Assembly (NCBI GenBank): GCA_964036665.1
Contig: OZ038527.1
Coordinates: 15,894,221 to 15,958,220, forward strand
DNA from: Gordius sp. MW1
Taxonomy: Eukaryota > Nematomorpha > Gordioida > Gordea > Gordiidae
Reading direction: 5' to 3'
Length of the DNA stretch: 64,000 nt
Below the pieces are notes generated by a model that searched no databases, had not been told where the DNA came from, and worked only from the letters and a program-made list of their open reading frames with translations. Below, piece after piece: positions 2,998 to 60,749 of this stretch. The translations under genes were made by a program, and so were the position numbers. Each line of letters opens with the position of its first letter. Within the stretch, counting starts at the first letter, position 1.

Positions 2998-4490
2998 TAA
3001 CTCGGGCCTTCGGCCCTCGTGGTAAGGGGGAGAAGGGAAGGGAAGAGGGGAAGGGAAGGGGGGACGACTCATCTGTACTTCGCATAAATGTATCATATTT
3101 GCTATGCAATTTATGGGCGAGAAAGATGGGAAGGGGCGGGAATGCCTATAGGGGGGTATTAAATGCCTAATGATTAATTAATTATTTATACAAATTTTCC
3201 ATCATAGGCAAAATGTAATATAGGCAAAATGTAATATAGGCAAGGGTTAGGGTTAGATTTAGTGTTTGCATCTAGTTGCGTATTACATTAGTTTTTATGG
3301 CCTTTAATGATTATGGGTCTAACAAACATTATATTATAAAACAACAAAATGTTAAGAATTTGCAGAATTGTTGGGAGAAATTTTTTGTTGAATTTGAACA
3401 ATTTTTAATTAAAAAAATCAAAAATTTGGCCAATGGTCACTTTTTCTTTATTGGTCAGTACCAACAGATACTCTATAAGTCAATGATAGCCAAAAAAACG
3501 GAAAAAAAAATTTTGATGCTCACTTTGGCCAATGGTCATTTTTTCCCATTGGTCAGCAGCCAGCACACGGTAAAAGTGGATATAAATTCATAAGAGTAAA
3601 AAAAACGAAAAAAAAATTTTCGAAACACATTTTGGCCAATGGTCATTTTTTTCCATTGGTCAGCAGCCAGGACACTGTAAAAGTGGATATAAATTCATAA
3701 TAGTCAAAAAAAACGAAAAAAAAATTTTGAATCACATTTTGGCCAATGGTCATTTTATTCCATTGGTCAGCAGCCAGCGGACGGCCAAAAAGTCATAATA
3801 GCAATGGTAGGAACAGGAACAATCATAATAGTCAAAAAAAACGAAAAAAAATTTTCGAATCACATTTTGGCCAATGGTCATTTTTCCATCGGTCAGGAGC
3901 CAGCGGACGGCCAAAAAGTCATAATAGCAATGGTAGTAACAGGAACAATCATAATAGTCAAAAAAAAACGAAAAAAATAATTTCGATTCACATTTTGGCC
4001 AATGGTCATTTTTTTCATTGGTCAGCAGCCAGCGGACGGCCAAAAATTCTTATTATCAATGATAGTAACAAGAACAATCATAAGAGTCAAAAAAACTCCG
4101 GGATTCTAACCCCAAAACTAGTTAAATTGCATAGCAATTAAAAAGTAAACAACTTTTATTTATGTTTATTATATAACTAGTTAAATTGCATAGCATTAAA
4201 AGTAAACAACTTTTATTTATGTTTAATATATAATAGATAATTTAACAAATCTTATATATAACACACCGAGGGAGATAGAGATGAGGGGTGGGGGACCTCT
4301 TATGCATTAATTTAAAAAATAACACAGCGATGGAGATAGAGATGAGGGGTGGGGCACCTCTTTCTCATGCATTAATTTAAAAAAGCGGTAACCTAATATA
4401 CCCAATGCAAATAGATAGAGAGGGTAACGGACAACGGACGGACGGACGGAGGGACACCAAAAAACGAGCCCATAAATTGCATAGCAATTA
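2998..4490. mobile_element. Tandem-array repeat element, copy 1 (Helentron/HINE-like architecture)
   Basis: It shares its whole layout with 21606-23530. A start block contains the palindrome GGGCCTTCGGCCC and a purine-rich G/A run. Then come TTGCTATGCAATTTATGGGC (about 3100), the motif AGGGTTAGGGTTAGATTTAG, a central array of about 120-127-bp repeats (3425-4105), a doubled block with GGGAGATAGAGATGAGGGGTGG, and a closing GCCCATAAATTGCATAGCAA (about 4470-4489). The last is the reverse complement of the motif near the start. Paired subterminal inverted motifs around a central microsatellite-like array are known from non-autonomous Helentrons, but no Rep/helicase is present and the class is an inference. 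Confidence 0.55.
3425..4105 (+). repeat. Tandem repeat array, about 120-127-bp unit, TTGGCCAATGGTCATTTTT type
   Basis: About six units. Each begins near TTTTGGCCAATGGTCATTTTT, continues with CATTGGTCAGCAGCCAG, then GGACGGCCAAAAAGTCATA and an A-rich stretch with AAAAACGAAAAAAAA. Within a unit CCAATG pairs with CATTGG across a T-rich loop, and the outer TTGGCC pairs with GGCCAA, so each unit can form a hairpin. Long open frames across the array (for example 3746-4141) are products of the repeat and its A/T runs, not genes. The array ends at 4091-4115 with a CCGGGATTCTAACCCC block resembling a tRNA B box in reverse. Confidence 0.85.
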
Positions 4491-5391
4491 ATATTTGATA
4501 TACAAAAAAATTTTAAGTGTAGTAAATTTTATACATCTTTGCAAAAATTAAAATTTGACAATCATTTAGATTTACCTAAGTATGGTTGACCCTTAGGGTT
4601 TGTGAATACTTTTATAATGAAAATGTTAGGCTTAGAATAAGTTCTAATGGAATAGTAAATATTACTAAAGCATATTTGAATTTCGCAGTTACTCATCCTG
4701 CATAATGCGTTAATTATAAATTGGTGTTCAATCTTTGAACAATTATACAACTTGAACTAAGGTGGCTCGAGGTTTTTGAGCACCCGCCTAACGATTTCAA
4801 AAGTTAAAATATTAAATGACACAGTAATAGATTAAATCTTGAGTCATAAGTTTTTTAACTGTTTTTATGCTTAAACTAATAGTATACCTCCTAAATTTTT
4901 GAACCTTAATAAGACATTATGTGAATACATAGTTTTGACGTATGCATTACTGTTCATATTATAAACAGGGTTGGCAGGTGCATTCAAATTTACTATAATT
5001 TCTATTATTATGCAATATAAAATAAATACACGAACCTGAACTTTCCATATAAAATGTTATTTTTATGAATTAATTCATATTTTTCTATTGTCAATGAGAG
5101 TCCTGTCCCGCTAAATCTTTAAAAAGTTTGTGTATTAAAATTTTTCGAAAAATATTAAAGTTTACCATTTGGATTTTTTTACACTGATTTAATATTTTAA
5201 AAACACTCGACAAATTTTTATTCCGTATTTATATGTTTTAAAAGTCGAGACGAGACGAGAATTCGCGTCGAGACGAGACCGAGATTTTCCTAGACCGAGA
5301 CGAGATCGAGATTTTCTTAATCGCTCCCGAGACGAGACGAGATTTTGTTTTCGAGACCGAGACGAGAAGAGATCGAAACACTAGTTTAGTG

Positions 5392-21605: not shown

Positions 21606-23530
21606 AAAAACTCGGGCCTTCGGCCCTCCTGGAAAGGGGGAGGGGAGAAGGGAAGGGGGGACGACTCATCTTTACTTCGTATAAATGTATCAAATTTGCT
21701 ATGCAATTTATGGGCGAGAAAGGTTGGAAGGGGCGAGAATGCCTATAGGAAGTATTTAAATGCCTAATGATTAATTAATTATTTATACAAATTTTCCATT
21801 TATAGGCAAAATGTAATATAGGCAAGGGTTAGGGTTAGATTTAGTGTTTGCATCTAGTTGCGTATTACATTAGTTTTTACGGCCTTTAGTGATTATGGGT
21901 CTAACAAATATTATATTATAAAACATCACAATGTTAAGAATTTGCAGAATTGTTGGGAGAAATTTTTGTTGAATTTGAACAATTTTTAATTAAAAAAATC
22001 AAAAATTTGGCGAATGGTCATTTTTTCTCCATTGGTCAGTACCAACAGATACTCTATAAGTCAATGATAGCCAAAAAAACGGAAAAAAAAATTTGATGCT
22101 CACTTTGGCTAATGGTCATTTTTTTCCATCGGTCAGCAGCCAGCACACGGAAAAAATGGAAATAAATTCACAAGAGTAAAAAAAAACGAGAAAAAAAAAT
22201 TTCGAATCACATTTTGGCCAATGGTCATTTTATTCCATTGGTCAGCAGCCAGGACACGGTAAAAGTAGATATAAATTCATAATAGTCAAAAAAAACGAGA
22301 AAAAAAATTTTCGAATCACATTGCCAATGGTCATTTTATTCCATTGGTCAGCAGCCAGCGGACGGCCAAAAAGTCATAATAGCAATGGTAGGAACAGGAA
22401 CAATCATAATAGTCAAAAAAACGAAAAAAATAATTTCGATTCACATTTTGGCCAATGGTCATTTTTTCCATCGGTCAGGAGCCAGCGGACGGCCAAAAAG
22501 TCATAATAGCAATGGTAGTAACAGGAATAATACTAATAGTCAAAAAAAACGAAAAAATAAACTCGGATTCACATTTTGGCCAATAATCATTTTTTTCATT
22601 GGTCAGCAGCCAGCGGACGGCCAAAAAGTTTATTATCAATGATAGTAACAAGAACAATCGTAATAGTCAAAACTAAAACTAAAAAAAAACTTGGAATCAC
22701 ATTTTGGCCAATGGTCATTTTTTCCATCGGTCAACAGCCAGCGGACGGCCAAAAAGTCATAATAGCAATGGTAGTAACAGGAACAATCATAATAAGCAAA
22801 AAAAAACGAAAAAATAAACTTGGATTCACATTTTGGCCAATGGTCATTTTTTTCATTGGTCAGCAGCCAGCAGACGGCCAAAAAGTCATAATAGCAATGG
22901 TAGTAACAGGAACAATCATAATAATCAAAAAAAAAGACAAAATAAACTTGGATTCACATTTTGGCCAATGGTCATTTTTTTCATTGGTCAGCAGCCAGTG
23001 GACGGCCGAAAAGTCGTATTAGCAATGGTAGTAACAGGAACAATCATAATAGTCAAAAAAAAGAAAAAAGAAACTTGGATTCACATTTTGGCCAATGGTC
23101 ATTTTTTTCATTGGTCAGCAGCCAGTGGACGGCCAAAAAGTCTTATTATCAATGGTAGTAACAGGAACAATCATAAGAGTCTAAAAAAACTCCGAGATTC
23201 TAACCCAAACCCTTGTAGTGGGGTAATTATAGCAATTAATATCAATGTACCCAATTCAAAAACGAATAGATATACTTTTGCATTAATTTAACGTAGCAAT
23301 TAAAACCCGACCCCGCCCGAAAGCGAGGGAGATAGAGATGAGGGGTGGGGCACCTCTTATGCATTAATTTAAAAAATAACACAGCGAGGGAGATAGAGAT
23401 GGGGGGTGGGGCACCTCTTTCTCATGCATTAATTTAAAAAATCGATAACCTAATATACCCAATGCAAATAGATAGGGAGGACATCAACGGACAACCAAAA
23501 ACGAGCCCATAAATTGCATAGCAATTAAAA
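21606..23530. mobile_element. Tandem-array repeat element, copy 2
   Basis: Same order as 2998-4490: GGGCCTTCGGCCC palindrome, purine run, TTGCTATGCAATTTATGGGC (about 21699), AGGGTTAGGGTTAGATTTAG, array (22010-23190), doubled GGGAGATAGAGATG block, and closing GCCCATAAATTGCATAGCAA (23505-23524). This copy has about ten array units against six in copy 1, so the array expands and contracts. Outside these blocks the two loci are unrelated, which defines the element limits. Confidence 0.6.
22010..23190 (+). repeat. Tandem repeat array, about 120-127-bp unit, about 10 units
   Basis: Units as in 3425-4105 (TTTTGGCCAATGGTCATTTTT ... CATTGGTCAGCAGCCAG ... GGACGGCCAAAAAGTC ... GGTAGTAACAGGAACAATCA). 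The first units have the variant CCAGCACACGG or CCAGGACACGG; later units are more uniform. Open frames up to about 150 codons cross the array but encode only the repeated unit. Confidence 0.85.
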
Positions 23531-25443: not shown

Positions 25444-25769
25444 AAAACTTTCTAAATTAGTTTTGCCTCTGCTGAACTAATATAAAACTTTGACTTAGTA
25501 GAAAGTTTTAATTATATAGAAAATACCTGGGCTAAGAAGCCATATAAAATTAAAACAACTTGAACGAATTTTGTTATATTTCAAAAAACAAAATTATTTA
25601 AAAAAACTTTAAATTCCGGAAGTTAGGCATGTGCAAATAAGAGTATCGTTAACGTTTTGACTATTGAATACAAGGTTTTAATTAAAAATGAAAAATATTT
25701 TACGTGTAAGTATGTGTGAATTATAATCAAAAAATATTAATTGCTATTAAGTTAAGTTAAATTTCACTT

Positions 25770-27170
25770 CACACTTTGGCCAATGGTCATTTTTTTCATT
25801 GGTCCGTACTCAGAGCTGGTCTATAAATACATACTAGTCAAAAAAAACGAAAAAAATTACGAATCACATTTTGGCCAATGGTCATTTTTTTTCATTGGTC
25901 ACTACCAACAGATACTCTATAAGTCAATGTTAGCCAAAAAAACGAGGAAAAAAATTTTACTTCACACTTTGGCCAATGGTCATTTTTTTCCAGTGGTCAG
26001 CAGCCAGAGGACGGCCAAAAAGTCATATTATCAATGGTAGTAACAGAAACAATCATAAGAGTCAAAAAAACGGAAAAAAAAATTTCGAATCACATTTTGG
26101 CCAATGGTCATTTTTTTCATTGGTCACTACCAACAGATACTCTATAAGTCAATGTTAGCCAAAAAACGAGGAAAAAAATTTCACTTCACACTTTGGCCAA
26201 TGGTCATTTTTTTCCAGTGGTCAGCAGCCAGCGGACGGCCAAAAAGTCATATTATCAATGGTAGTATCAGGAACAATCATAAGAGTCAAAAAAAACGGGG
26301 AAAAAAATTTTCGATCTACACTTTGGCCAAATGGTCATTTTTTCATTGGTCAGTAGCCAGCGGACGGCCAAAAAGTCATATTATCAATGGTATTAACAGG
26401 AACAATCATAAGAGTCAAAAAAAACGGGAAAAAAATTTCGCTTAACACTTTGGCCAAATGGTCTTTTTTTTCCAGTGGTCAGCAGCCAGAGGACGGCCAA
26501 AAAGTCATATTATCAATGGTAGTAACAGGAACAATCATAAAAGTCAAAAAAAAATATTTTAATTTTTTGGCCTCTCCGGGATTCGAACCCCAGATCTGAA
26601 GAGGGATAATAAGTCTTTTTAAGGGGGGGGGGCACAGGGACCCATATCAGTAGAGGCAAGATCCTTCTAGGAGAGGGCATGGGGTATTTATCGATGTTAG
26701 TCAAAAAAATGGAAAAAAAATTTGCTTCACTTTGGCCAATGGTCATTTTTTTCCATTGGTCAGTACTCAGTGGACGGCCAAAAAGGCATATTAATCAATG
26801 GTAGTAACATAAACAATTAATGTTAGCCTAAAAAAACGTCAATGGTATTAACAAGAACAATTTATTAATGTAAAAAAAACTATTAATAGCATAGCAAACC
26901 CCATATCTAGAAAGGCATGGTCATTTTTTCCCATTGGTCAGTAGCCAGTGGACGGCCAAAAAGGCATAATATCAATGGTAGTAACATAAAAAATCAATGT
27001 TAGGCTAAAAAAACGTTAATGGTATTAACAGGAACAAATTATTAATGTAAACTAGTTAAATTAACCTAGTAACAAACAGCGTGACAAACAGCGTACGAAA
27101 AAAAAATTTCGATTTATATGCCAATGGTCATTTTTTTGCAATGGTCAGTAGCCAGCGGACGGTCAAAAAG
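25770..27170 (+). repeat. Tandem array of the TTGGCCAATGG family, copy 3, interrupted
   Basis: Six to seven contiguous units (25770-26550) are followed by CTCCGGGATTCGAACCCC (26573-26590), a perfect reverse B box of a tRNA. Then come scattered single units at about 26720, 26915, 27120 and 27455. The locus ends at 27625-27660 with GACGGACATCAACGG repeats and GCCCATAAATTGCATAGCAA. It lacks the GGGCCTTCGGCCC start seen in copies 1 and 2, so it is a 5'-truncated or rearranged copy. Confidence 0.75.
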
Positions 27171-28765: not shown

Positions 28766-30100
28766 TTGGGTTGAGGAGAAAGTTCGGTAGGGTGCAACAC
28801 ATGCTTCTGATGAATTATATAAAATTCATTAAGTAGAACTCTTTCCCCTCTACAAAACTGTGCCAATCGTGATTTTAAGAAATTTAGTTTTTTATAACTT
28901 TCGCGACGTCAAAATGGAGCATCCAAACGGTAAAAATCAACATTTTCGACACCTGCTATTCTTCGCTTTTTATCGTGGTCAAAACGCTGCTGAAACAGCC
29001 TGAGACATTTGTAAAGTATACGGAGAAGGTGTCATAGTTGAGTCTACAGCACAAAAATGGTTCGCAAAGTTCAAAAATGGCGATTTTGACATCGCTGATA
29101 AGCCCCGTAGCGGAAGACCCTCGGTTGACGACGAAGAGTGTTTCAGAACACTTTTGAAGGAGGACGGTCGCCAAAAAGTCGTGAATTGGCGGAAATAATG
29201 AAGTTCGATCAGAAAACCATCCTAAATCATCTTCATTCGATGGGATTAGTCAAAAAATTGGGATCTTGGATCCCTCACGAGCTTAACGAAAGCCACAAAG
29301 AAAATCGCCTTCAAATCGCTTCTCAACATCTCGCCCGTCATCGAGCAAGCGCGGTCATAAACAGCGCTTTTTGTACTGAATCGCCACGGGAGATATATAT
29401 TTATTTCATATCCTGTGTTGTCAATATCTAAGTATTTGATTCAATAAACTTTTAATAAAAAAAAATGGTGTATGTCCGTAAATTTGAAGCAAAGAAAGGA
29501 GTGGGTGGCTCCTGGAACGACTCCAAAGCCGAGGGTAAAGCCTGACCTCCATCCAAAAAAGACCATGAACTGCGTTTGGTGGGACTGGGAGGGCATTCTT
29601 CATTGGGAAATTCTGGAAAGGAATGCCACGGTCAACAAGGAGCTCTATATATCCCAGCTACACCGCGTGAATGAGGCTATTCGACTCAAAAGACCCCATC
29701 GACAAGGCCATACCATACTCCTTAACGACAACGCAAGGCCCCATGTTGCTCAAATGGTAAAAGCCGCACTCCAAGAGCTCGAATGGGAGGTCCTTCAGCA
29801 TCCACCATATTCTCCGGACCTTGCTCCGACGGATTACCATCTTTTCCGCTCTCTATCGATCCATATGAGGGGCGTTACCTTGGACAATGTAGAGGGCCTT
29901 AAAAACTGGCTCAACAACTTCTTCTCTACCAGACCGGTCGATTTTTGGCGTAATGGCATCGAAAAATTGGTCAAAAGGTGGGAGGAGGTCGTAAACAGCA
30001 ACGGCGAATATATTATTGAATAAGTTATTGTTATAACAATAAATAATCGTTAAATAAAAGTCGACTGTAATAAGAGCCAAGGTCTTTTTACAACACTATT
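28766..30100 (+). mobile_element. Mariner (Tc1/mariner superfamily) element, inactive
   Basis: The left end begins TTGGGTTGAGGAGAAAGTTC just after a TA, as mariner elements do. The transposase-like sequence starts 148 bp inside. The matching inverted repeat is not visible after the stop codon (30023) where it would be expected by about 30100, so the right end is lost or strongly decayed. Host sequence on either side is AT-rich without features. Confidence 0.8.
28914..30023 (+). pseudogene. Mariner transposase pseudogene
   Basis: Related to the cecropia/SETMAR-type transposases, which cut and paste DNA with a D,D34D active site. The helix-turn-helix part is visible (QHFRHLL, AFYRGQNAAETA, WFAKFKNGDF, KPRSGRPS), followed by KSRELAEIMKFDQKTILNHL and WIPHELNESHKENR. 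The second and third acidic residues are present in LLNDNARPH and YSPDLAPTDYH, and the end is RWEEVVNSNGEYI. Breaks: an in-frame stop after AAETA, a frameshift near 29350, a stop just before the first catalytic aspartate, and about 75 bp of foreign AT-rich DNA ending in an A run, inserted at about 29395-29465 between GD and KW of the usual GDEKW box. It cannot encode active transposase. Confidence 0.9.
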
Positions 30101-46470: not shown

Positions 46471-46997
46471 TATAGATTATATTAGTACATTGTAGTGTTG
46501 TAAAAAACCAAGGTTTTAGATTGGTCGCCTGCAAGGGTTAGCGTTTTTTCCCACCAAACCCTTTCAGTGTTAGGTGAATTTTTTTGGTTCACCCTTGGTG
46601 TTTGGCGCTTTTCACACCCATACACCAAGAGTGTTTGGGTGAAATTTTTTGGTTCACCCTTGGTGTATTGGCGCTTTTCACACCCATACACCAAGGGTGT
46701 TTGGGTGAAATTTTTTGGTTCACCCTTGGTGTATTGGCGCCTTTCACACCCATACACCTTTGGTAACCTTTTGGTTTGGTTTTGGTCGGTTTGGGTTGTG
46801 TATGGAAACATGTGAAGTTTTTATAATTTTTGTATTTATTAGTTATTTATTTTTGTAATGAACTTTTATTGATGGGAAATATGAAATGACGTCACTAAGT
46901 GGAAAGTATCATACTTGCTAGTTATAATCAACCTATAATTTGTTCCAATTGGTATGCGATGCATCATTCATGCAGATCATTAAAGGTGTATTATGAA

Positions 46998-47870
46998 AAT
47001 ATTTTTTCACCTGTTAATTGTGAAACAGGTGACAAATGTCAAAATCTTTAATATCTATTGAAATGAATATTTTTTTTTGGGAATTGGTTCATTATATGAC
47101 TAAAACAAGTTTTAAACTCGAAAATAATATTTTTTCACTTGTTCAATGTGAAACAGGTGGCAAATTCCAAAATCTTTAATATCTATTGAAATGAATATTT
47201 TTTTTTGGGAATTGGTTCATTATATGACTAAAACAAGTTTTAAACTCAAAAATAATATTTTTTCACCTGTCCAATGTGAAACAGGTGACAAATGTCAAAA
47301 TCTTTAATATCTATTGAAATGAATATTTTTTTTTGGGAATTGGTTCATTATATGACTAAAACAAGTTTTAAACTCGAAAATAATATTTTTTCACCTGTTC
47401 AATGTGAAACAGGTGGCAAATTCCAAAATCTTTAATATCTATTGAAATGAATATTTTTTTTTGGGAATTGGTTCATTATATGACGAAAACAAGTTTTAAA
47501 CTCGAAAATAATATTTTTTCACCTGTTCAATGTGAAACAGGTGACAAATTCCAAAATCTTTAATATCTATTGAAATGAATATTTTTTTTTGAAAATTGGT
47601 TCATTATATGACTAAAACAAGTTTTAAACTCGAAAATAATATTTTTTCACCTGTTCAATGTGAAACAGGTGACAAATTCCAAAATCTTAAATATCTATTG
47701 AAATGAATATTTTTTTTTGGAAATTGGTTCATTATATGACTAAAACAAGTTTTAAACTCGAAAATAATATTTTTTCACCTGTTCAATGTGAAACAGGTGA
47801 CAAATTCCAAAATCTTTAATATCTATTGAAATGAATATTTTTTTTGGAAATTGGTTCATTATATGACTAA
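46998..47870 (+). repeat. Left-arm tandem array, about 120-bp unit, 7 units
   Basis: Seven units with near-constant length. Each has a TTTTTCACCTGTTCAATGTG/AAACAGGTG stem-loop, a T run of 8-10 bases, TTGGTTCATTATATGAC and ACAAGTTTTAAACTCGAAAA. Variation between units (GACAAATGTC against GGCAAATTCC) shows exchange of unit types rather than simple doubling. The right arm (48560-49310) carries the inverted equivalent. Confidence 0.92.
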
Positions 47871-48559
47871 GATAAGTTTTAAACATGAAAAAAATATATA
47901 TTGGAAGTTTTGAGGAGTTAGGTTTAGTCTACATTAACTTTTATAATGTTTTATTTTAACTGGCTTATTCTTAGATGTATATAAGTTGTATAAAATTTGT
48001 GGTCAGACAAAAGGTGTCATAATCTTTAAATTGGGTCAATTCATTTATTTTCCGATATTTTGCACAAAGCAATATTGAAACAAGTAGCATTTATAGAAAA
48101 AAAGTCTAAATCATACAGGTAAAAAATCTAAATCTTTTAAGTAGATCTCAATTAAAATATTTCTTTTACGTTTCCATCTTTTAAGGCTTTATTAAGTCCC
48201 ACTCATTATAAACGTATAAAAGTTGTAGATCCTAAAGATGAAAAGTGTCCGAATCTTTTTAATTGGCCTAAATACGATATGTAAATAAACGTCTTGGGGT
48301 CCTCATGACTCGACCCAGAATATTCTAATTAAAAGATTTAGATTTTTTACCTGTATGATTTAGACTTTTTTTCTATAAATGCTACTTGTTTTAATATTGC
48401 TTTGTGCAAAATATCGGAAAATAAATGAATTGACCCAATTTAAAGATTATGACAGGTTTTGTCTGACCACAAATTTTATACAACTTATATACGTCTTAGA
48501 ATAAGCCAAAATGTAGATTAAACCTAACTCCTCAAAACTTCCAATATATATTTTTTTCA

Positions 48560-49310
48560 TGTTTAAAACTTGTTTTAGTCATATACTGAATCAATTTCCA
48601 AAAAAATATTCATTTCAATAGATATTAAAGATTTTGGAATTTGTCACCTGTTTCACATTGAACAGGTGAAAAAATATTTTTTTCGAGTTTAAAACTTGTT
48701 TTCGTCATATAATGAACCAATTTCCAAAAAAAAATATTCATTTCAATAGATATTAAAGATTTTGGAATTTGTCACCTGTTTAACATTGAACAGGGGAAAA
48801 AATATTATTTTCGAGTTTAAAACTTGTTTTCGTCATATAATGAACCAATTCCCAAAAAAAAATATTCATTTCAATAGATATTAAAGATTTTGGAATTTGC
48901 CACCTGTTTCACATTGAACAGGTGAAAAAATATTATTTTCGAGTTTAAAACTTGTTTTAGTCATATATTCAACCAATTTCCAAAAAAAATATTCATTTCA
49001 ATAGATATTAAAGATTTTGGAATTTGTCACCTGTTTCACATTTAACAGGTGAAAAAAATATTATTTTCGAGTTTAAAACTTGTTTTAGTCATACAATGAA
49101 CCAATTTCCAAAAAAAATATTCATCTCAATAGATATTAAAGATTTTGACATTTGTCACCTGTTTCACATTGAACAGGTGAAAAAATATTTTTTTCGAGTC
49201 TAAAAATTGCTTTAGTCATATATTCAACCAATTTCCAAAAAAAAATATTCATTTCAATAGATATTAAAGATTTTGACATTTGTAACCTGTTTCACATTTA
49301 ACAGGTGAAA
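48560..49310 (-). repeat. Right-arm tandem array, inverted copy of the left array
   Basis: About six units of the same roughly 120-bp sequence in the opposite orientation. Unit variants (for example ATATTCAACCAA in place of ATAATGAACCAA, TTTAACATTGAACAGG) are not all matched in the left arm, so the arms have diverged and partly re-exchanged units. Confidence 0.9.
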
Positions 49311-50167
49311 AAATATTTTCATAATACACCTTTGATGATCTGCATGAATGATGCATCGCATACCAATTGGAACAAATTATAGGTTGATTATAACTAGCAA
49401 GTATGATACTTTCCACTTAGTGACGTCATTTCATATTTCCCATCAATAAAAGTTCATTACAAAAATAAATAACTAATAAATACAAAAATTATAAAAACTT
49501 CACATATTTCCATACACAACCCAAACCGACCAAAACCAAACCAAAAGGTTACCAAAGGTGTATGGGTGTGAAAGGCGCCAATACACCAAGGGTGAACCAA
49601 AAAATTTCACCCAAACACCCTTGGTGTATGGGTGTGAAAAGCGCCAATACACCAAGGGTGAACCAAAAAATTTCACCCAAACACTCTTGGTGTATGGGTG
49701 TAAAAAGCGCCAAACACCAAGGGTGAACCAAAAAAATTCACCTAACACTGAAAGGGTTTGGCGTAATTTATACACCAATTACCAAGCTTGGCAACACGCT
49801 GGGAAAAACCAGCCAGCCGTTTTTACAACACTAGTACATTGTATTCATATCTGCAAAGTTTAAAACAAAAAAATTATAATAATTGACAAATTCAAAATTT
49901 TGATTAAAAAGTATATATATTATTTATTTGCAGGTAAAAAAATGTAATATTTTGTAATTATTTTGGCCATTCGAAATTAACATTTAATAAATTTTAATTT
50001 ATTATCTCCTATCAACTGGTTTGTAACCTAAAAGAGAACTCAATCTAATTTGGCCTTAGATAGACTTATCTCGATTACAATGTGACTAGAAAATTAACTA
50101 TGGCATACTGATGAGCTCCGATAAGAGCGAAAACGTTATGTCTGTTTTTATTTTCAAGTCACATTCT

Positions 50168-57995: not shown

Positions 57996-60749
57996 TAGAG
58001 GTGTGCAGGGATCAAATTTTTTTGATCCGATCCGAGGGGGTTTTGAAAAATTTTATATCCCATCCGATCCGATCTGAGTTTTTTAAAATCTAAATCCGAT
58101 CCGGAATTTTTAAATTAAAATTTTACGAACAGAACTTTTTATTGATGATTAAATTCAAAATACATAAAAATAAGGTATAGCAATTTTAATAGACCTGAAA
58201 TAAATATAAAATTTTATTTGACTAATTCCATATTATCATATAAAAATAGTAAAGAATCTAAATTTTCTGGTTTAATTCGCGTTCTTCTTTCTTCTAATGT
58301 TCTTCCAGCCACTGAAAAATTTCTTTCCGAAGTGGTAGAGGTAGCAGGTATAGCTAAAACTTTATTTGCCAGCTTATAAAGCCTTGGCAGGACTGTTTGA
58401 TATGACCCACCATTTCAGCAAATCTTTTTTGAATCATATTTGTAATCTTCTCATTTTAACGAAAGGTGAATTGAGGTTTCATCAGGGACTTTATCTTCTT
58501 CGTGCTCATCTTCCCATTGATTGACTATTTTAAAATATAAATTAAATAATTTATTTTATGTAAAAAAATATATATATATTTAAATGTATGTTAATTACTT
58601 TTTTGACTATCACTACTACTTGCCGCATAATTTTCAATCTCAGTTGCAGAATCTACCAAAAAATCCTTAGCTAGGGTGGATCTTATTTCATTAATTACGC
58701 CTACTCGCTTATTTGGGGGGAGCATCCTAAGTTGGCGATAATTTGGGCACAAAAATGTGGCAATTTTATGTTGTTGAGTGATTAGAAATTTTGACTTGAG
58801 GGTGGTACAAATATCTTTTTTAATATCATTAATTTCGTGATGTTCTTCAAAATCATCAGTTTGCTCGTGGTCTGATTGTGAAAGATCACCGAGTAATTGG
58901 TAATATTGAATCAATATATTGTAAAAGGTTGGGTGTTGATCAGCTTCCAGAACTAAAGAAGCCGTTTTAAACGGCCGGAGTACTTCTATTAGTTTGGTCA
59001 GCAAATTTTTATCAATCACATCTACTGGCATATCTCTGGAAGTTAGATATGTGGTCAGTTCCTTATACTCCTTCAATATGCTCTCAAACATGTCGTGTCT
59101 GGAGTTCCATCTTGTTTCTATTGCTTGATGCAATGTATGCTTTAAATATTTATTTTTGCCACTTTGCTTCATATATGTCGTTGGCTTTTTGCATGCTTCT
59201 ATCAAGTCATTAACCTGAGGGTAATGGAATGTAAAATCATTTTTATTGAATACGTTTCGTAGTACTGTTATCAGTAAATGGGACGTGCAATTCATTCGCT
59301 TATGATTTTGCAATGCTTTGACCTTGTTAGAGCCCTGATCGGTAACGTAAGTTATCAATCTCATGTATTCTGTAGGGATGTGAAGTTTTTGAAAATTTAC
59401 AGATATTTTTCTTACAAAATTTTCCCCTGTTTTTTTTCAACATCTATTTTTGAAGCGAAAAGAATATGCTAATGTAGGATTCCGAGGATATATAATGTAA
59501 AGAAAATGTTAAGTAGTTTATTTTGACAAAGTCATCTGTCGAGAGGTCGAGAGTGGCTGAACATGATTTTGATTTTAAATGGGGGAGTAACTTTAATATT
59601 AATGCTTCTCTACTTACATCTGCAAGTTTTGCTGTATTCTTACTTAGGGTAGTCCTATCTGAAAGTAATTCATCAACGTTTATATGACCATGAATGGCAC
59701 CAATATTTAGAGCTTCTTGGAGCATTGCTCTAAATCCTTCCCTGTTAACGATTGAAAACGGTCGAATATCTTTTGAAATAAAATAAATTAGATGCTTTTC
59801 AATTTTTAATTTTGTGATTTCAGAGAGAGGTTTGGTAACAAATTTGTCAACTGAAGTTTTTGGAATACATTTATGATGCAAAAGATGGGAACTACCTCGA
59901 ATGGAATTATATGTGTAGATATGATGGCATTCCTTGCAGATAACATAACCGGTGTTTGTATCATTTTCATTTAGAAGGTCAAAGTAACTCCAAATTTGAC
60001 TTTTTCCGTCTTATTTTTTAACTTGTTGAAGCATATTTCTTTTAGATTTTTTTATTATTTCTTCCATGACGGTTTTCAATATGATAAACAATATTGTTGT
60101 AATTGCTAGCTGTTACGAATCCCAATGATTATTTTTAACACCCCCCCCCCCCCCCCCCATTATTTTTTCCCCTCAAGTCAGCATGACTCACACCATCTCG
60201 TCAACGACAATACCCCTGCACCATGGAGATTGCTTCTAAGAAGGCAAGCTACATCATTCATAATTACCCGGAATCAAGAGGGAAAGGAGCTACGCGTGTG
60301 CGGAAAGTGGAAATTGTGATCGATGATTTTCGGAGTTGACTTGAGTTAAGATAGAAAGAGATGCGTGTGCTAAAAAAGAAACAAGAGATGCTGATTTATC
60401 ATTGACACTAGCTCCTTTCTCGCCAAACAAGAAAGTCTAGCTAGGGAAAAACGCTAGGGAAATACTGATAAATATATCAGGGTAAGTAAGGTGAGAGGTG
60501 GTATTGGGCATCAAAAATGGTAAAGTAAAAAAAGAATGCAAAGATAATTATGAAAAGGTATACTAAAAATTATTAATTTAATTAATTGGAACTTATTATT
60601 GTTTATTTTAAATTTGAAAATCCGATCCGATCCGACAAAAATAAAATGTTGATCCGATCCGACTTCCCAAAATTAAAATGTTGATCCGATCCGATCCGAG
60701 TTCGGACTGGGATCGGATGTCGGATCGGATTGATCCGTGCACACCTCGA
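57996..60749 (-). mobile_element. hAT transposon, near-full-length, GATCCG arrays
   Basis: The 2754-bp element starts TAGAGGTGTGCAGGGATC and ends GATCCGTGCACACCTCGA (last bases mutated from CTCTA). It is flanked by an exact 8-bp duplication ATATATGC (57988-57995 and 60750-60757), which interrupts the LINE RT frame. Arrays of GATCCG lie inside both ends (58020-58100 and 60620-60735). It contains the transposase gene (- strand) absent from the 1103-bp sister copy at 20367-21469. Ends and arrays are shared between both copies. Confidence 0.93.
58214..60012 (-). pseudogene. hAT transposase with BED finger and C-terminal dimerisation domain, decayed
   Basis: On the - strand: BED-type zinc finger (WSYFDLLNEND, CKEC, HLLHHKC, 60007-59870), KIEKHLIYFISKDIRPFSIV (about 59800), LDLSTDDFVKINYLTFSLHY (about 59550, start of the RNaseH-like core), frameshifts at about 59470-59400, then LITYVTDQGSNKVKAL and KHTLHQAIETRWNSRHDM. 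A short intron (about 58588-58532) precedes the hAT C-terminal domain: LYKLANKVLAIPATST, SERNFSVAGRTLEERRTRIK, ENLDSLLFLYDNMEL. An extra frameshift lies near 58455. The family reaction is cut-and-paste with 8-bp duplications, which agrees with the flanks. Indels make this copy inactive as read; otherwise the domain set is complete. Confidence 0.88.

Follow-up and report, generated by a model that had tools for sequence, protein, structure and literature searches.

A palindromic foldback element, apparently of the hAT type, with unlike tips and variable tandem arrays in Gordius sp. MW1

The window analyzed here is a 64,000 nucleotide stretch of Gordius sp. MW1 DNA (contig OZ038527.1, positions 15,894,221–15,958,220 of the forward strand). 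Window positions 46493–49833 (plus strand) contain an insertion of 3341 bp. It is bounded by a perfect 8-bp target site duplication (TSD), GTACATTG, found at positions 46485–46492 on the left flank and 49834–49841 on the right, and its terminal inverted repeats are 14 bp long, perfect, and read TAGTGTTGTAAAAA. The segments of the element are in the order T vvv U u7 C S C′ u′6 U′ v′v′v′ R′, those marked with a prime being inverted. The T tip is 61 bp (46493–46553, plus strand) and the R tip 72 bp (49762–49833, minus strand), and neither has an inverted partner except for the 14-bp end; the first 44 bp of T and the outer 54 bp of R are the portions used in comparisons across subfamilies. Three 66-bp v units are present at 46566–46758 on the plus strand and three inverted ones at 49557–49749 on the minus strand. 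Next to these is U, a unique arm segment of 240 bp at 46759–46998 (plus strand), which is found inverted at 49317–49556 (U′, minus strand). The 128-bp u units number seven on the left (46999–47891, plus strand) and six on the right, where they are inverted (48554–49316, minus strand). The central arm segments C (47898–48146, plus strand) and C′ (48324–48547, minus strand) enclose a non-inverted spacer, S, of approximately 180 bp (48146–48324), which is missing in two other copies of the element, L078 and L080.

Comparison of the window with itself shows two pairs of inverted arm segments, i.e. 46554–47205 with 49110–49761 (652 nt without a gap, 97% identity) and 47961–48145 with 48324–48508 (97%), to which the arrays add further inverted matches that are shifted in register. 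Apart from the 14-bp ends, inverted homology in the window copy begins 61 bp from the left end and 72 bp from the right end, thus the element is palindromic between two unlike tips. Tandem Repeats Finder (TRF) gives 7.0 copies of the 128-bp unit at 46998–47897 and 6.1 copies at 48548–49319, and 3.0 copies of the 66-bp unit in the inverted array pair at 46566–46758 and 49557–49749. An earlier note on this DNA, made from the letters alone, had described the exact 8-bp duplication and the inverted termini correctly. Its two arms that are reverse complements of each other are borne out by the pairs at 97% but not by the outer 61 and 72 bp, which are not mirrored; the description "almost fully palindromic" therefore does not hold for the tips, T differing from R. 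Its count of six to seven units per arm agrees with the seven and six found, although the unit is 128 bp and not 120 bp, and the inverted pair of 66-bp arrays was overlooked.

The longest open reading frame that touches the element is 109 aa and crosses the repeats. As in foldback elements, long inverted repeats make up the bulk of the sequence and contain tandem units whose number varies between copies. The inverted repeats do not reach the extreme ends; whether a foldback requires this is a matter of definition. A palindrome in the arm segment, TGACGTCA, which we take to be a CRE-type site, is located at 46887 and 49421 of the window, i.e. within U and U′. It is present in all three subfamilies described below (L078, L080, L071, L024, L025, L027, L083 and L079, as well as the window copy) and was not found in L073, L074 and L070.

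The u unit displays a 9-bp stem. A stem had been attributed to every unit; both of its halves are present in 11 of the 13 units if the first half may deviate by one base, but two right-arm units are without one half. When compared with shuffled sequences, the 128-bp unit tested folds with a z value of −3.06 and the v unit at 46640–46705 (66 bp), which has a 14-bp stem, with −4.55, while the stretch 46559–46625, containing the outermost v unit, folds weakly (−1.64). Over 162 of the 128-bp units, the stem diverges by 2.6% and the remainder of the unit by 5.0%, yet the stem is only eighth among 128 circular shifts and there is one double change among all cells. The stem of the 66-bp unit shows no conservation (rank 47 of 66 over 79 units), and one of its pairs is a C-A mismatch in 48 of the 79 units. 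Stem conservation is thus modest in the 128-bp unit and absent in the 66-bp unit. Selection on the hairpin, with a weak signal in the one and none in the other, is therefore not demonstrated and was set aside.

The left arm is enriched in the words GGTG, GGTGAA and CAGGTG. GGTGAA is found 12 times where 0.9 are expected, a count that is inflated because the units are copies of one another; in the sister subfamily it is found twice (0.2 expected). The enrichment in CAGGTG comes from the 128-bp units only, and this word was not found in two tested stretches outside of these units. Repeated binding sites would explain the excess of GGTG-type words, and the GGTG and GGTGAA repeats may be additional, putative sites for the BED finger of a transposase.

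The window also contains a different family of repeats with units of approximately 96–129 bp in three arrays, at positions 3400–4384, 22000–23442 and 25759–26553. Its units have a stem of the type GGCCAATGG...CCATTGGTC. The first and third of these arrays lead into tRNA-like sequence (e.g. CTCCGGGATTCGAACCCC), and the array at 22000–23442 into a similar sequence. ARAGORN predicts no tRNA at the tRNA-like stretches beside these three arrays.

The genome searched for other copies comprises 211.8 Mb in 12 contigs. The 13-bp end occurs at 5208 places (control, 50). The R end, taken as its outer 34 bp with at most three mismatches, occurs at 298 places compared with none for a reversed-pattern control and thus is above chance. 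With at most three mismatches, the T end is found at 112 places and the core of the 128-bp unit at 754, and the control of each gives none. Eleven independent copies could be read at both ends with their flanks, L072 and L077 being left out of the count as duplicated neighbourhoods of L071 and L073. Nine of the 11 have perfect 8-bp TSDs, all of them different: GTACATTG in the window; TAGCACAC, ATGAGAAT, ATATAAAC, GTATAAAC and GTATGATG among L071, L073, L074, L078 and L080; ATTCATGA in L024/L025; GTGTGCGG in C2:15360463–15363021; and GTATGGGT in L076, which has a small deletion at its right end. The two that fail are L070, where the flanks do not match, and L069, where the right tip is lost. 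That the element is mobile, with ends like those of hAT and duplications of 8 bp, had been proposed on the condition that further copies share these ends and have target duplications; nine of the 11 both-ended copies uphold this. In all 11, one tip is T and the other R. When the window flanks (300 + 300 bp) are joined, no match across the join is found elsewhere within the window.

The same genome also contains short elements with TAGTGTTGTAAAA ends, which share the 13-bp end. Ten of them seen with both ends are 131–211 bp long and their flanks agree in six to eight of eight positions. At C2:5564909–5659105, six R ends are found on alternating strands approximately 16–21 kb apart, a pattern suggestive of tandem duplication of a segment of about 36 kb.

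Short inverted ends of hAT elements conform to the consensus (C/T)A..G, and the element, whose perfect 14-bp ends start with TAGTG, fits this pattern. The 8-bp length of the TSD in nine of the 11 independent both-ended copies is also that of the hAT superfamily. Hermes prefers 8-bp targets of the form nTnnnnAn (PMC10368747). Among the flanks of the first 30 places with the shared 13-bp end, which are mostly from short elements and include at least one element counted twice, A is at position 7 in 26 and T at position 2 in 16, the latter being a weak enrichment (p = 0.026). In the first eight TSDs of the element itself, T is at position 2 in seven and A at position 7 in four, so that in either set one half of the pattern is clear. 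The TSDs, the TAGTG tip and the A at position 7 of the flanks point to a hAT element of the Ac/Hermes type, although that A is found in only four of the eight element TSDs.

A partner transposase was sought by eye among matches to PF05699 (the best 150 of 3413 candidates, of which 30 loci were read) and PF10683 (101 matches). These domain matches were compared with 100 of the 298 R places and 100 of the 112 T places. The exact 13-bp end is absent from all 30 of the hAT loci read, where there are a few matches with one or two mismatches; no transposase with TAGTGTTG ends was found among them, thus the hAT membership is read from the ends and the duplications only. Of 17 hAT loci whose ends were printed, 15, belonging to three families, finish in TAGAG...TGCAAA and two are ambiguous. 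Nor did the listed domain matches and ends yield the full-length partner transposon that the earlier note had proposed to look for. The single near pair of a domain match and a T end among the listed places is at C8:26748877 (L081). This locus has a T end and approximately 150 bp of arm homology but no R end within 6 kb, and its reading frames appear muscleblind-like by eye; it was rejected as an autonomous partner. In the window, a transposase-like open reading frame, hAT by eye, is at 58591–59364 (minus strand), and a match to a Hermes-type DNA-binding domain is at 59648–59806 (minus strand; C1:15953868–15954026). Both are about 9–10 kb from the palindromic element and outside of its ends. 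A mariner-like open reading frame, also identified by eye, is at 29472–30023 and adjoins a lone TTTTACAACACTA end at 30086–30098.

The copies fall into three subfamilies that have the tips in common and differ in their inverted arrays, which are of 128-, 67- and 110-bp units. Nine copies were mapped end to end (the window copy, L078, L080, L071, L073, L074, L070, L069 and L076). Counting units per copy, as had been suggested, shows that the number varies among these nine: the T arm contains 5–16 of the 128-bp units and the R arm 3–17, the 66-bp units number 3–21, and each count is accurate to one unit owing to partial units. In most of the nine, the two arms have unequal numbers. L070 has 21 nearly identical 66-bp units on one arm (L070:5072–6451) and three on the other, and L078 and L080 have no centre, so that both arrays join head to head. 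At C1:733051–737868, the sister copy, of which the outer 1.5 kb at each end was read, has the same tips and a 67-bp G-rich array in its inverted arms. In the copy at C2:15360463–15363021, the arms are 97.7% identical over 829 bp and contain 4.7 and 3.7 copies of a 110-bp unit; a stray R tip is also present inside this copy.

A copy with its T end at C1:25064556 displays 50 exact matches to the u core, all on one strand, between 25065334 and 25080790. The last 3 kb of this region (L082, C1:25080700–25083700) was read directly and is a solid array of 128-bp units with no end. The satellite-like array thus extends from C1:25064556 to at least 25083700, approximately 18 kb or more, most of it seen as spaced pattern matches. 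It has apparently grown from one copy of the palindromic element. Distances of 6145 and 6269 bp recur in the array and might reflect faulty assembly.

Five copies from the three subfamilies were used to align the arms separately from the tips, after removal of 44 bp from the T side and 54 bp from the R side of each. These limits derive from the 67- and 110-bp subfamilies, in which the inverted homology starts at the same positions, bp 45 and 55; in the subfamily of the window copy it starts 17–18 bp deeper. The arm segments are homologous among all three subfamilies. The two arms of the same copy are 97% identical in the window copy, 99% in both the 67-bp and the 110-bp subfamily, 97% in L080 and 94% in L076. 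Between subfamilies, arm identity is 82–83% for the 67-bp and 110-bp types and 58–65% for the 128-bp type with either of the others. Tips show the reverse: across copies T is 86–98% identical to T and R is 87–100% identical to R, whereas T compared with R gives 44–57%. Across subfamilies, therefore, arms go with their own copy and tips with their own kind.

Within the 128-bp subfamily the result is less uniform. Arms of different copies are 86–97% identical, thus the other arm of the same copy is not always the closest relative, e.g. the R arm of L076 has 97% identity with the R arm of the window copy and 94% with the T arm of L076 itself. The 240-bp U segment was compared in nine copies with both arms, the matches in L070, L008 and L027 being too short to keep. 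The own other arm is closest in three of the nine (L076, L078 and L080), is nearly tied with another copy in L069, and is not closest in the window copy, L006, L071, L073 and L074. The arms of L006 are from two lineages. From this mixed result, exchange seems to occur both within and between copies. Exchange between arms, as the earlier note had supposed, therefore stands for the comparison across subfamilies but is uneven among close copies.

The pairing of ends was examined in contigs 1–4 and in contig 5 up to 6.6 Mb, the region for which usable positions are available for T as well as R. Here, 51 T places (0–3 mismatches) and 99 R places (no mismatch, one R place left out) were searched for ends facing each other within 7 kb. 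Of 31 facing pairs, 28 are T/R, three are R/R and none is T/T. Because three T ends each face two R ends, the 28 T/R pairs represent 25 T ends. Shuffling of the labels gives a mean of 14.0 T/R pairs, and none of 10,000 shuffles reaches 28. All three R/R pairs are located inside T/R elements. An extra R tip, in either orientation, is inside or adjoining six elements, those with T ends at C1:22571966, C2:15360463, C3:4385561, C3:8109323, C3:9760992 and C4:22699865; in the one such element that was read (L083/L079), it is only about 56 bp of R. When both ends of a Hermes donor are left ends, little mobilisation remains, and when both are right ends, none does; the authors of that study conclude that end asymmetry is important for activity (PMC10368747). 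By analogy, the same need for unlike ends would, on the simplest reading, hold T and R apart here.

The explanation preferred here, with a probability of roughly 0.7, is a non-autonomous hAT-type foldback that is moved in trans and whose arms are homogenised while transposition preserves two unlike ends. A transposase encoded elsewhere (hAT, Ac/Hermes-like) would require two unlike ends, and if so only T/R copies would spread. Inside of the tips, the arms would copy each other, by gene conversion or by template switching in the repair of gaps or foldbacks, and so become homogenised. Unequal exchange would allow the arrays to expand, to shrink and to be replaced, and on one occasion may have run away into a satellite-like array. 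A more detailed version is put forward tentatively, at less than even confidence. It divides the element into two zones, with short unlike tips strongly constrained by a two-end hAT transposase and inner arms that are ever copying each other, by which every copy would mend and remake itself in mirror form; the arrays would serve as exchangeable cassettes, of at least three unlike units, and as a nursery of satellite DNA.

The arms could also have arisen by independent duplication, i.e. one subterminal region was copied to the other end, inside of the tips, separately in each subfamily, with no ongoing conversion. Arms that are near-identical within each subfamily and different between them would be expected on this account as well. 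The inverted homology starts at 61 and 72 bp in the 128-bp subfamily and at 44 and 54 bp in the other two; this difference, together with the R arm of L076 being closer to that of the window copy, weighs the preferred explanation down and independent duplication up. The two-lineage arms of L006, and the arms of L071, L073 and L074, which show no greater similarity to one another than to those of other copies, also agree with it. On the other hand, the 67- and 110-bp subfamilies have arms 17–18% apart and yet the same limits and 99% identity between their own arms, the arm segments are homologous in all three subfamilies, and the U arms of L076, L078 and L080 are closer to each other within the copy than to any other copy examined. 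Independent duplication is the strongest of the alternatives in our estimation, though unlikely. A selected foldback, in which a putative hairpin RNA would feed small-RNA silencing or a DNA cruciform would assist movement, is less probable again. The inverted arms are indeed very long, two of the three unit stretches fold clearly better than shuffles, and the 128-bp stem diverges less than the rest of its unit; but its rank among circular shifts and single double change are unimpressive, the 66-bp stem is not conserved, and unlike arrays can replace one another.

Assignment to the Mutator or P type, like FB, Tetris and Galileo, instead of hAT appears doubtful. The layout is the same, TSDs of 8–10 bp in Tetris and 7–8 bp in Galileo are described in the cited accounts (PMC4079207; PMC4168063), and no transposase is in hand, but the 8-bp TSDs at nine loci, the TAGTG tip and the predominance of A at position 7 (26 of 30 flanks) fit hAT. 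Long inverted arrays are difficult to assemble, and the 6145- and 6269-bp recurrences in the array at C1:25.065–25.084 Mb are of the kind an assembly fault might leave. For the element itself, an assembly artefact or a chance palindrome is already refuted by nine independent loci with perfect and different 8-bp TSDs, differing unit numbers and three arrays, and hardly any weight is left for it.

On the preferred reading of a hAT-type foldback with two preserved ends, a mirrored interior combined with unlike tips in all 11 both-ended copies is a natural test of the end-asymmetry rule. The three subfamilies also hint at the length of unlike sequence that is needed, 44–61 bp on one side and 54–72 bp on the other. 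Because a single genome contains many copies from three subfamilies, gene conversion from arm to arm becomes measurable in foldback elements.

Foldbacks with tandem units inside their inverted repeats are already known, namely Tetris and one copy of Galileo, and some of the foldbacks of FB, sea urchin and Chironomus also have tandem repeats. FB of D. melanogaster and the sea urchin and Chironomus elements have the foldback layout in common with the present element (PMC4079207); these elements, Tetris and Galileo are likened here by description. In the literature searched, no hAT foldback was found in which homogenised arms with interchangeable arrays lie between short unlike tips; subscription journals were mostly outside of this literature, so the result is weak evidence of absence. 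Galileo, of the P superfamily, has the foldback layout and highly variable inverted repeats, and one 9-kb copy has tandem repeats of approximately 140 bp inside both of them (PMC4168063). Unlike the present element, it has 7–8-bp TSDs with the consensus GTATTAC and a known P-type transposase, and the inverted repeats of the most complete copy in the cited account are 99% identical (PMC4168063).

Hermes resembles the element in its 8-bp nTnnnnAn targets, short subterminal motifs and need for two unlike ends; it differs in that it encodes its own transposase, is approximately 3 kb and has dissimilar ends of about 450 bp, and a palindromic interior is not part of the cited description (PMC10368747). 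Tetris of Drosophila virilis is likewise non-autonomous, without a found transposase, with a middle domain, 8–10-bp TSDs and long inverted repeats that contain a variable number of tandem units of approximately 220 bp (PMC4079207). It differs in that an external flanking domain opens its inverted repeats, the cited portion of the report giving no unlike tips outside of them, and in having three structurally complete copies and one type of unit (PMC4079207). The repeats of Tetris grew into satellite arrays, and its authors propose a Mutator origin (PMC4079207). The element described here provides a comparable case of a foldback growing into satellite-like DNA, in this instance apparently one of the hAT type.
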